Positions 3,951 to 36,760 of a stretch of 64,000 nt of DNA are shown here, piece after piece. Position numbers and translations under genes: made by a program. This DNA is from Sphingopyxis sp. YR583 (GTDB lineage Bacteria > Pseudomonadota > Alphaproteobacteria > Sphingomonadales > Sphingomonadaceae). The notes below the pieces were generated by a model. It saw nothing but the letters and a program-made list of their open reading frames with translations. It made no database searches and was not told where the DNA came from. Within the stretch, counting starts at the first letter, position 1. Every line of letters begins with the position of its first letter. Location of the stretch: the NCBI RefSeq assembly GCF_900108295.1, contig NZ_FNWK01000002.1, positions 558,001-622,000 on the forward strand, read 5' to 3'.

Positions 3951-4280
3951 TCAGCGTCTGATCGCATCGAACATGTCGATCACACTCAGAAGACCTTTCC
4001 GCTCGTCGTCGAAAAGATCCTCGTACTTCAGCGCCTCATGACATTTTTCGACAAGAATGCTGTCTAGGTGTCTGGCTCGAAAATGCATGAACACAAAATG
4101 GGCACGCCACTGGAGAAATTCAGAAAAAGCTCTAGTTTCGTCGGCATTCTGGCGCTTGAGAACGGGCCATAGTGCAGCAAAAGCCGAATTGGATACCGCC
4201 ATCGTCGCCGCGACTGAGTTCGGGACAAGTTCTTCAGTGCTCAAAGTCGCCATCCTTCGGCCGCCGCCCAATTTTGGCAC
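3951..4280 (-). CDS. hypothetical protein, low-GC orphan ORF
   Basis: An ORF of up to 109 residues reads against the flanking trpC and moaC genes. The GTG at 4280 has an AGG a few bases upstream; an ATG at 4253 would give a 100-residue protein. The sequence is mostly helical-looking and charged, with [16 protein letters not shown] and a C-terminal [13 protein letters not shown]. It has no signal peptide, no membrane segment and no motif I recognise. Base composition over the ORF is visibly more AT-rich than both neighbours, and it separates genes often adjacent in sphingomonads, which suggests a recent acquisition. It could be non-coding. Confidence 0.45.
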
Positions 4281-33980: not shown

Positions 33981-34135
33981 GATGGAACTCCTGCGGTCTA
34001 TGTTGGCGGTCCCATAGCCGGACGAGCCGCCAAAGCCACGCATTAAATCGCGAAACGGCGCTCGCGGCGTTGCCATCGGCGGGCGGCAGCACTAGGGGAA
34101 GGCTAAACGCCGCAACCGTCAGGGAGGACTGCGCG

Positions 34136-35587
34136 ATGGACAAACGCGAAGATTCCCTGCCGCCCGAAGATGTCGTCATCACCGACGACCGTGACCGCGA
34201 ACAACCGGCGCGCGAAACCGACACCGAGCTCGATAAGGACGACCGGCTGAAACCCGAATTCGTTCGCGACGTGATCGAATTGGCGGAAGCTGGCGAAAGC
34301 GAAGCCGCGCGCGAACGCATCGGCCGCCTGCACCCCGCCGACATCGCCGACCTTTTCGAACTCGCGCGCGCCGACGAGCGGCCGATGCTTGCGGCGGTGC
34401 TCGGCGACATGCTCTCCGCCGACGTGCTGGCGGAAATGAACGATTATGTTCGCGAGGAACTGATCGACCTTCTCGCACCCGAGCAAGTCGCCGAACTCGC
34501 GTCCGAACTCGATACCGACGACGCCGTCGCCATCATCGAGGATATGGAGGAGGACGAGCAGCAGGCGGTCCTCCAGGCGATGGAACCCGAAGATCGCGCC
34601 GCGATCGAGGACGCCCTCTCCTTCCCCGAGGAATCCGCCGGGCGCCTGATGCAGCGCGATCTGGTCGCTGTGCCCGAGCATGTGACCGTCGGCGACGTCA
34701 TCGACCGGCTGCGCGAAGACACCGACCTCGCAAGCGATTTCTGGGAAATTTTCGTTGTCGACCCGATGCACAAGCCGGTCGGCACCTGCCAGCTGAGCTG
34801 GATCCTCCGCACGCCGCGCGACATCGCGATCAGCGATGTGATGAAGCGCGAACAGACGCTGATCCCGGTCGACATGGACCAGGAAGAGGTCGCGCTGCGC
34901 TTTCAGAAATATGCGCTGATTTCGGCGGCCGTCGTCGACAAGAGCGGACGGCTGGTCGGCATGATCACGGTCGACGACATCGTCCACATCATTCAGGAAG
35001 AGGCCGGCGAGGATATCCTGCGCCTCTCCGGCGCCGGCGACGGCGACATCAACGAACCGATCCGCGAAACATATAGCGCACGCGTCCGCTGGCTGATCGC
35101 CAATCTGGGCACCGCTCTCGTCGCCTCGACGATTGTAGGCATCTTCGGCGGCGCGATCGAACATATGGTCGCGCTCGCCGCGCTGATGCCGATCGTGGCG
35201 GGGGTGGGCGGCAATGCCGGGACGCAGACGCTCGCGGTTACGGTGCGTGCGCTCGCGATGAACCAGCTCACCGATTCGAACAGCTGGCGCGCGATCTGGC
35301 GCGAAATGAAGATTGCGCTGCTCAATGGCGGCACCATCGCGCTGATCGCGGGAACCGCCACGGCCTTGTGGTTCGCCAATCCGCAGCTCGGCATGGTGAT
35401 CGCGGCAGCGATGATCGTGAACATCTTTGTGGCGGGCGTGGCCGGGGTAGCGATCCCGCTGATGCTCGACCGGCTCGATCAGGATCCCGCCGTCGCGAGT
35501 TCGATTTTCGTCACGATGACGACCGATTCCATGGGATTTCTCGCCTTTCTCGGCCTCGCGGTACTCAGCGGACTGACGACGCTCTGA
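34136..35587 (+). CDS. mgtE: MgtE magnesium transporter
   Basis: A 483-residue MgtE channel: an N-terminal helical magnesium-sensing domain (HPADIADLFE, a tract of acidic residues), two CBS domains (about 165-290, with GTCQLSWILRTP and VGMITVDDIVHIIQEE), and five C-terminal membrane helices. The pore signature PIVAGVGGNAGTQTLAV is present. The acidic cytosolic domain gates the channel by magnesium in characterised members. GGGAGG lies 8 bases before the ATG at 34136; upstream in-frame codons lack support. Confidence 0.96.
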   Translation: MDKREDSLPPEDVVITDDRDREQPARETDTELDKDDRLKPEFVRDVIELAEAGESEAARERIGRLHPADIADLFELARADERPMLAAVLGDMLSADVLAEMNDYVREELIDLLAPEQVAELASELDTDDAVAIIEDMEEDEQQAVLQAMEPEDRAAIEDALSFPEESAGRLMQRDLVAVPEHVTVGDVIDRLREDTDLASDFWEIFVVDPMHKPVGTCQLSWILRTPRDIAISDVMKREQTLIPVDMDQEEVALRFQKYALISAAVVDKSGRLVGMITVDDIVHIIQEEAGEDILRLSGAGDGDINEPIRETYSARVRWLIANLGTALVASTIVGIFGGAIEHMVALAALMPIVAGVGGNAGTQTLAVTVRALAMNQLTDSNSWRAIWREMKIALLNGGTIALIAGTATALWFANPQLGMVIAAAMIVNIFVAGVAGVAIPLMLDRLDQDPAVASSIFVTMTTDSMGFLAFLGLAVLSGLTTL

Positions 35588-35656
35588 GAGCAAACCTCTG
35601 GAATCCAAGCGATTCAAAAATTTCCGAAAAATATTTCATCCGTGCGATTTTTTTCG

Positions 35657-35682
35657 GGAACTTATTGGCTGCATCGGTCGTT
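35657..35682 (+). promoter_or_regulatory. EcfG-type general-stress promoter
   Basis: GGAAC (35657-35661), 17 bases, then CGTT (35679-35682) match the alphaproteobacterial EcfG/sigma-T consensus GGAAC-N16/17-CGTT. Transcription would begin near 35688-35691, about 120 bases before the entericidin ATG. An AT-rich stretch lies just upstream. Confidence 0.75.
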
Positions 35683-35688
35683 TCCCCT

Positions 35689-35782
35689 TCGAGCAGCGGT
35701 CATCGCCCCCCCGCAGCGCTGCTCAGCAACATTGGCCCGGCCCGCATTCCCTCCCCCCCCTCGAAGCGTGCCGGGCCATTTT
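35689..35782 (+). ncRNA. candidate stress small RNA or structured leader with two C-rich loops
   Basis: Hairpin 1 pairs GAGCAGCG (35691-35698) with CGCTGCTC (35717-35724), exposing an 18-base loop with seven consecutive C. Hairpin 2 pairs TGGCCCGGC (35733-35741) with GCCGGGCCA (35770-35778), extended by CGC/GCG after one mismatch. It exposes a 20-base loop containing CCCT and then eight C, and is followed by TTTTG. Promoter, paired C-rich loops and a terminator-like end resemble sigma-T-driven sRNAs such as Caulobacter GsrN; homology is not shown. It could instead be the entericidin leader, or both by partial termination. Confidence 0.5.
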
Positions 35783-35808
35783 GCGTCAACTCCTGAGAGG
35801 TTAGAAAA

Positions 35809-35937
35809 ATGACGAGTTTCCGAGCAATCCTTCTCGCCCTGATGGCAAGCTTTCTGGTCACTGGTTGCAACACGGTGAAGGGTGCTGGCCGCGACATCGA
35901 GTCGGTCGGTCAGGCAGGCAGCGACGCCATCAACTGA
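35809..35937 (+). CDS. entericidin A/B-family small lipoprotein
   Basis: A 42-residue ORF: MTSFRAILLALMASF, then lipobox LVTGC (Cys at about 20), then NTVKGAGRDIESVGQAG. The Cys-N-T-x-x-G-x-G-x-D-I arrangement is the entericidin signature. GAGAGG lies 8 bases before the ATG. Entericidins are stationary-phase envelope lipoproteins (EcnB promotes lysis, EcnA antagonises it in E. coli). The upstream EcfG promoter fits stress induction. It is followed by two hairpins inside the convergent tatC end. Confidence 0.88.
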   Translation: MTSFRAILLALMASFLVTGCNTVKGAGRDIESVGQAGSDAIN

Positions 35938-35953
35938 TCTTGAGTAACTTACC

Positions 35954-36760
35954 CTAAGCCTCTTCGAGAGGCTCGACAGGCGCCGCTTCGGCGCCTGTTT
36001 TGCGTCGGCGCTGGGTAAACCAGATCGCGAGCAGCGACATTTCGTACAGAAACACCAAAGGCACCGCGAGCAGAAGCTGGCTCAGGATATCGGGCGGCGT
36101 AAAAACCGCAGCGATCGCGAACGCCGCGACGATCATGTAACGACGCGCCGAGACGAGCTGCTCGCGTGTCACCAGCCCCGAACGCTCGATCAGCATCAGC
36201 AGGATCGGCAGCAGGAAAGCGATGCCGAACGCCATGATGAACTGCATCGTGAAGCTTAGATAATTGCCAACCGACGGCAGCGCTTCCTGCGTGATACCGC
36301 CGACATTGCCCTGATAACCGAGCAGGAATTTAAGCGCGATCGGGATGGTGATGAAATAGGCAAAGCTGGCGCCGATCGCGAACAGCACGGGCGTTGCGAT
36401 CAGGAACGGCAGCAATGCGCGCTTTTCCTGCTTGAACAGACCGGGCGCGACGAATTTCCAGAGCTGGTTGGCGATTACAGGAAAGGCGATCATCATCGCC
36501 GCAAACAGCGCTACCTTGATCTCGACGAAAAAGGCCTCGAACAACTGGGTATAGATCAACTTACCCTGCCCCGCGCGGACGAGCGGCTGCACCAGTATCC
36601 CGAAAATCGGTTTGGCGTAATAGAGGCACACGCCAAAGGCGAGGCCGATCGCCAGCAAGGATTTCAGCAGGCGCGAGCGCAGTTCGATCAAATGGTCGAG
36701 AAGCGGCATCTTGCCACCGGCGCCATCCTCATCTGCCGAGACTGGAGCTTCGCCGCTCAT
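35954..36760 (-). CDS. tatC: Sec-independent translocase TatC
   Basis: TatC is the multi-span receptor that recognises twin-arginine signal peptides together with TatB. The 268-residue protein has the conserved N-terminal PLLDHLIELRSRLLKS, six predicted helices, FVAPGLFKQEKR in the first periplasmic region, and FGIAFLLPILL. It overlaps tatB by 4 bases and is the last gene of the argS-to-tatC run. Confidence 0.97.
   Translation of the reverse strand: MSGEAPVSADEDGAGGKMPLLDHLIELRSRLLKSLLAIGLAFGVCLYYAKPIFGILVQPLVRAGQGKLIYTQLFEAFFVEIKVALFAAMMIAFPVIANQLWKFVAPGLFKQEKRALLPFLIATPVLFAIGASFAYFITIPIALKFLLGYQGNVGGITQEALPSVGNYLSFTMQFIMAFGIAFLLPILLMLIERSGLVTREQLVSARRYMIVAAFAIAAVFTPPDILSQLLLAVPLVFLYEMSLLAIWFTQRRRKTGAEAAPVEPLEEA
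35958..35997 (+). terminator. tandem hairpins after the entericidin gene
   Basis: GCCTC-TTCGA-GAGGC (35958-35972), then CAGGCGCCG-CTT-CGGCGCCTG (35977-35997), followed by TTTTGCG. The second stem is 9 bp and looks like a rho-independent terminator for the entericidin transcript. Both lie within the last codons of convergent tatC, so sequence constraints are shared. Confidence 0.65.

Follow-up and report, generated by a model that had tools for sequence, protein, structure and literature searches.

The stretch of Sphingopyxis DNA analysed here, 64 kb long and hereafter called the window, carries on its plus strand, in this order, mgtE (34070-35587), the element described in this study, and ecn (35809-35937), which codes for an entericidin-type small lipoprotein of 42 aa; tatC and two TatA/B-type genes follow on the minus strand. 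Both the TatC protein and the DNA of the element have their nearest named relatives in Sphingopyxis. A reading made beforehand from the sequence alone (the sequence-only reading) had placed the element just before a lipoprotein gene, and the Ecn protein indeed matches the entericidin family PF08085 at 26.5 bits, for a Pfam cut-off of 23.3. Against the NCBIfam entericidin A model it scored 37.9 bits, under the cut-off of 86. The motif AGAGG (35796-35800), from its sequence probably the ecn Shine-Dalgarno, is mostly retained amid a variable spacer. Past ecn, a ACAGGCGCCG stem with a T-tract (35976-36001) is probably the terminator of the gene; it was recognized by eye, the terminator scan did not call it, and it overlaps the 3' end of the opposite-strand tatC. 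The letters TTTTGCG stand after it, as after hairpin 2 of the element.

All parts of the element lie on the plus strand. It begins with an EcfG-type promoter sequence, read directly from the DNA as a -35 box GGAAC (35657-35661), a spacer of 17 nt and a -10 box CGTT (35679-35682). The predicted small RNA of about 95 nt (35689-35784) has sharp conservation edges, and our covariance model matches 35688-35788; its probable 5' end was placed by its spacing from the -10 box, and its 3' end by the T-tract. Hairpin 1 (35691-35724) consists of an 8-bp stem, GAGCAGCG (35691-35698) paired with CGCTGCTC (35717-35724), closing a loop with a run of seven Cs (35706-35712). The linker AGCAACAT (35725-35732) leads to hairpin 2 (35733-35778), in which an outer stem of 9 bp (35733-35741 with 35770-35778) is followed by a C/U mismatch, an inner stem of 3 bp (35743-35745 with 35766-35768), weak UUC/GAA pairs, and the loop CCCTCCCCCCCC with its eight Cs (35753-35760). 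Hairpin 2 doubles as a terminator-like stem, and TTTTGC (35779-35784; TTTT at 35779-35782, then GC), conserved genus-wide, is the presumed 3' end, 24 nt ahead of the ecn start. On re-reading, the earlier description of this geometry (GGAAC-N17-CGTT, the 9+3 count, the loop lengths and the ends) proved correct throughout; the inner UUC/GAA pairs are an addition.

Upon folding of 35685-35808 with RNAfold, both stems were recovered (-47.3 kcal/mol, z -3.85), and 1 of 200 shuffles folded equally well. Two of the three runs of at least seven Cs or seven Gs in the window lie inside the element, as does one of its two GGAAC-N16/17-CGTT sites. A simple scan of 35560-36060 called no terminator, under a rule (loop of 3-8, at least 5 T) that leaves hairpin 2 outside; this result and the shortness of the T-tract weigh against the small RNA reading given below. 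A coding role was also considered: all three frames of the element are open in the window, but the length of the C-runs varies among species, so that no frame is kept, and this role was rejected.

Conservation and covariation of the element

The element is found almost throughout its genus, with a DNA match at E <= 0.01 in 77 of 80 genomes, 75 of them convincing and two (G210, G255) short and weak. Among the three genomes that gave none, completeness is only 68% and 76% in two; in the third, G181, the covariance model finds a match that lacks the box. We aligned the window with 46 of 51 loci (L034-L084), mostly Sphingopyxis-titled, a few being placed only to family or phylum. Of the five loci left out, L079 carries the element, and L044, L060, L068 and L076 are cut off by the end of a contig, inside the element or ahead of it. 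Identities were counted on 46 rows, i.e. the window and 45 Sphingopyxis-type loci, L061 being omitted for its inverted hairpin-2 loop.

In these rows, the -35 box and the linker are identical in 46 of 46, the -10 box has a mean identity of 96.8% against 55.6% for the promoter spacer, and stems, loops, linker and TTTTGC reach 92-100%. The flanks are less conserved (spacer 56%, stretch from TTTTGC to ecn 47%, first ecn codons 80%). A conserved block with such sharp ends indicates that the element is a unit.

Two observations were made on individual assemblies. In L061 (Sphingopyxis sp. H073, 3971-4072), the hairpin-2 loop is inverted, turning the C-run into a G-run, and the outer stem is intact; the seven Cs of hairpin 1 could then pair with the G-run, and this single case is either real or an assembly fault. 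In several Sphingopyxis assemblies (L044, L060, L076, L094; G226, G235, G237, G238, some possibly from the same genomes), contigs break inside or at hairpin 2, which suggests that this C-run hairpin poses difficulties for sequencing or assembly.

Other genera show the same layout built on stems of very different sequence. Two-sided changes were found in 14 of 24 pairs among 14 non-Sphingopyxis sequences, and in 23 of 24 among 60 sequences placed on model R1, where 95.6% of the cells are paired, against 77.5% in shuffles; this 60-sequence alignment was fitted to the structure and is therefore biased towards pairing (alignment A2 is a plain MAFFT one). The covariation score was 0.498, for 0.167 in shuffled alignments, and none of 500 shuffles matched any of five measures. 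When partner columns were slid by 1-3 positions, pairing fell to 32-44%. Both hairpins contribute: two-sided changes affect 9 of 9 modelled pairs in hairpin 1 (98.2% of cells paired) and 14 of 15 in hairpin 2 (94.0%), over the 60 sequences.

A C-run of at least six is present in both loops at 60 of 60 loci, a count that is partly circular, like that of the promoter box below, since both GCCCCC and an EcfG box formed part of the pattern used to choose the model seeds. In later-fetched loci, e.g. L179, L188 and L189, the C-rich loops are interrupted by T. The element is thus no chance fold, and both the covarying stems and the conserved C-runs, which the sequence-only reading had set beforehand as its test, are found in related genomes.

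Promoter sequence and spread among sphingomonads

The proposal of an EcfG-type promoter held up well. A GGAAC-N16/17-NGTT box, ending 4-9 nt ahead of the model start, precedes 59 of 60 loci (the exception is L089), as compared with 57 of 9685 random segments of the same loci. It was present at 30 of 30 loci (L114-L143) that came from the model alone, with the promoter ignored, at least four of which duplicate named loci. Twenty further family loci gave a box in 13 and none in 7 (L182, L183, L184, L185, L186, L187 and L199); a 21st match, at 20 bits, was dropped. By eye, 27 genera have both model match and box. NepR and PhyR are the usual partners of EcfG, and the source genome has two NepR matches above cut-off, one with PhyR beside it in a Pfam scan. 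The box also agrees with the EcfG consensus of S. granuli TFA, given as GGAAC-N16-CGTT with the -10 variants TGTT, CATT and GGTT (PMC7083833). This promoter sequence suggests that transcription of the element depends on EcfG.

At E <= 0.01 the model matched in 82 of 199 family genomes and 45 of 96 genera, in keeping with the earlier suggestion of a sphingomonad RNA; by eye, 72 genomes match at E <= 1e-6. The other 117 genomes gave no model match in a search of limited sensitivity, in which at most 10-27 candidate stretches were scored per genome, so that some copies may have been missed. Wider searches, own family included, gave E <= 0.01 matches in 9 of 385 genomes of the class and 42 of 147 of the order. 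We re-read 28 of the 34 matches from 27 of these class and order loci, six at 12-19 bits having been dropped. A box was present in one of the 28, L179, which belongs to the family and stands before ecn, and in none of the re-read matches outside the family; by eye, most of those other than L179 resemble terminator stems whose loops are rich in C.

Some of the matches deserve mention on their own account. Outside Sphingomonadaceae, L148 (1501-1599, minus strand; 39.4 bits) and L149 (1501-1597; 36.8 bits) form two hairpins with C-runs in both loops and no box; their kinship with the element may be distant or only apparent. Six loci of another family of the same order, f177 (L160, L161, L162, L165, L166, L169), have mutually similar terminator-like hairpins with very C-rich loops, a small hairpin upstream and no box, perhaps a separate C-loop RNA. 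In genus g6, L180 (625-739) and L181 (678-786), from genomes G099 and G005, are second, diverged copies with a box and C-run loops; by eye, they precede an FAD/NAD-oxidoreductase-like frame, not ecn.

Relation to ecn and possible modes of action

Since no leader of ecn other than the one containing the element is visible in the window, the element might act in cis, as a 5' leader or attenuator whose hairpins set the stability of the mRNA or the fraction of polymerases reaching ecn, with no target in trans. The distance of 24 nt speaks for this in Sphingopyxis, as does the lack of a second box between RNA and ecn at all 14 Sphingopyxis-type loci, L089 included. So do expression values for an ecnAB gene, SGRAN_1922, in S. 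granuli TFA: 0.03 of the wild-type level in the ecfG2 mutant and 0.00 in the double mutant (PMC7083833, Table 1). SGRAN_1922 is likely but not certain to be the ecn behind the element, because two entericidin genes exceed the cut-off in S. granuli NBRC 100800, one behind the element and the other with GGAAC in its leader region.

Other loci tell against a leader. Among the 54 with ecn at most 500 nt away, 40 remain once Sphingopyxis and its MAG L089 are set aside, and 33 of these 40 have a second GGAAC-type box between RNA and ecn, for 46 of 5795 length-matched control segments. At four further loci (L127, L130, L131, L133) a search of both strands near the RNA turned up no ecn; an opposite-strand tatC-like frame adjoins it or, in L131, lies some 370 nt on. 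An entericidin search in the genomes of these four loci (G145, G197, G077 and G010) likewise gave nothing above cut-off beside the RNA; only G077 has one such gene, which lies elsewhere, and G197 has two just under cut-off. An ecn with its own box at 33 of 40 loci, and an RNA without neighbouring ecn at four, make the RNA a gene of its own, of which ecn is a frequent neighbour and not a part. Moreover, the stretch past TTTTGC is unconserved, and C-runs are retained in both loops, where a terminator has no need of them. We therefore regard a purely cis-acting element, with no trans targets, as unlikely.

The Sphingopyxis ecn itself seems to have no box of its own and would then depend on read-through. 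A weaker terminator in Sphingopyxis was considered and rejected, the first 8 bases holding 4.43 T on average at 14 Sphingopyxis loci and 4.46 at 46 others. In L127, L130 and L133 the convergent tatC-like frame extends into hairpin 2, which might be a two-way terminator. The source genome also has two more entericidin-like genes under the Pfam cut-off (L145, C3:228000; L146, C1:714930), with GGAAC 73-76 nt before the start.

The reading that we consider rather likely is that the element encodes a general-stress small RNA of Sphingomonadaceae, of about 95 nt, acting in trans through its two C-run loops in the manner of GsrN and of 6C/B11. Under stress, PhyR would release EcfG, which would initiate the transcript at about 35689, and transcription would end at hairpin 2 and its T-tract, near 35783. 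The clamp stems would expose two C-run loops, GCCCCCCCGC and CCCUCCCCCCCC, and either loop could base-pair with runs rich in G, chiefly those at ribosome-binding sites. Such pairing would block the translation of several mRNAs or, as GsrN does on katG, raise it. In Sphingopyxis, read-through from the element promoter would in addition supply ecn.

C-runs exposed on clamp stems are characteristic of small RNAs that pair with G-rich ribosome-binding regions. As computed by RNAduplex, loop 2 could pair at -20.0 kcal/mol with GGGGAGGG, -18.9 with G7, -9.0 with a plain AAGGAGGU and -6.3 with the ecn leader. The pattern GGGGRGG-N3-11-ATG occurs 94 times in the source genome, as compared with 18 for a reversed-pattern control, the pattern itself containing an ordinary Shine-Dalgarno sequence. 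We fetched 13 G7 sites, among which the kdpA start was judged the best candidate. As a conserved target kdpA was rejected: G7 is present at 1 of 25 readable starts, from 30 loci of the 51 among 80 genus genomes that have KdpA (one locus, L272, is probably false). Action in trans is the best reading of this loop anatomy, and any targets are putative.

The C-runs might instead hold a protein or soak up G-rich RNA as a sponge, with no regulation of mRNAs. Two near-identical C-run loops could form a binding repeat, and the one candidate checked, kdpA, gave no conserved mRNA target; on the other side, the accounts of both mechanistic relatives, GsrN and B11/6C, describe pairing with mRNAs, and we hold this explanation to be improbable.

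Comparison with known small RNAs

No Rfam family matched the window at gathering thresholds. Below them, the element scored 28.2 bits with ar14, 18.7 with 6C and 24.7 with Scr3202, for gathering scores of 58.8, 47 and 52, and these candidates were set aside, the matches not being repeated in 10 other loci. Our search of the open-access literature found no report of the element; it may already be annotated as a TSS or small RNA in S. granuli. We class it as a new RNA family of a known kind, set apart from ar14, 6C and Scr3202 by model scores and differing from GsrN, as described, in its locus and its second C-run hairpin.

Among the closest known systems is GsrN of Caulobacter crescentus, which depends on sigma-T/EcfG and shares with the element an EcfG-type promoter, a length of about 100 nt, an exposed C-run on the 5' hairpin and a terminator hairpin (PMC5869019). 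G-run targets are expected for both: in the model proposed for GsrN, targets are selected by six tandem Cs of the 5' loop, the target strings listed include GGGGGCG and CGGGGGGC, and hairpin 1 of the element, with CGCCCCCCCGC, includes complements of such strings, e.g. GGGGGCG and GGGGGGC (PMC5869019). These likenesses could be taken to mean that the element is the true orthologue of GsrN, a kinship that the sequence-only reading had raised and left unestablished. Against it, GsrN acts through its 5' half, whereas here both hairpins carry C-runs, GsrN having been compared by description (PMC5869019). Cleavage of GsrN yields a stable 5' isoform (PMC5869019). The BLASTn relatives reported for GsrN are in Caulobacteraceae only, and its authors searched for relatives among genes adjoining the GSR locus (PMC5869019). 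In Erythrobacter litoralis, the out-group of that study, they reportedly saw no gsrN-like gene (PMC5869019).

The locus differs too: the element lies on contig C2 at 593688 and the nepR matches on C1 (893282, 876429), away from the nepR-phyR locus. Genes like gsrN are typically near ecfG-nepR-phyR, C. crescentus itself being the exception. With no box-bearing match beyond the family among 385 class-wide genomes, in a search of limited sensitivity, homology with GsrN is not supported, and orthology appears very improbable. The observation reported by the sequence-only reading is confirmed, and its interpretation partly supported.

Membership in ar14, the NfeR1 family of Sinorhizobium (RF02344), is hardly credible: common to both are the alphaproteobacterial host, repeated C-rich anti-Shine-Dalgarno loops and variable stems with fixed loops (PMC10746234), and the sub-threshold match is full-length (E 0.00066 for 161 bases), but its alignment takes the promoter sequence as first stem, none of 10 loci from other genera matched at E <= 0.5, and ar14 has three CCUCCUCCC hairpins, its founding member NfeR1 being described with a sigma-70 promoter (PMC10746234).

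If the stress small RNA reading is true, sphingomonads, a group familiar as plant-surface dwellers and degraders of pollutants, have a conserved stress small RNA, usually near tatC, which a search based on the GSR locus would miss. In the literature compared here, GsrN is the one EcfG-controlled small RNA described with a worked-out role. The covariance model, the 27 genera and the S. granuli TFA ecfG mutants make the claim testable.

To our knowledge there is no EcfG in the mycobacterial 6C/B11 system. The 6C RNA (RF01066), or B11, belongs to another phylum, and shares with the element the two C-run loops, which are redundant in B11, where they act on a leader containing six Gs (PMC10470900). 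The three anti-Shine-Dalgarno loops of NfeR1 are likewise redundant in action (PMC10746234), and Bsr6 of Brucella, an RpoE1-dependent small RNA, has in common with the element a general-stress sigma box (PMC12772402). That the element works like GsrN and 6C is a supported but unproved analogy. With somewhat less than even confidence, we suggest that Sphingomonadaceae possess a widespread post-transcriptional branch of the general stress response peculiar to them, through an RNA that arose independently of GsrN, ar14 and 6C and converged with them on a poly-C/poly-G code, the terminator hairpin itself bearing one of the seed loops, and that in Sphingopyxis its gene was also made into the stress-driven leader of ecn, a single unit then yielding both a small RNA and an mRNA.
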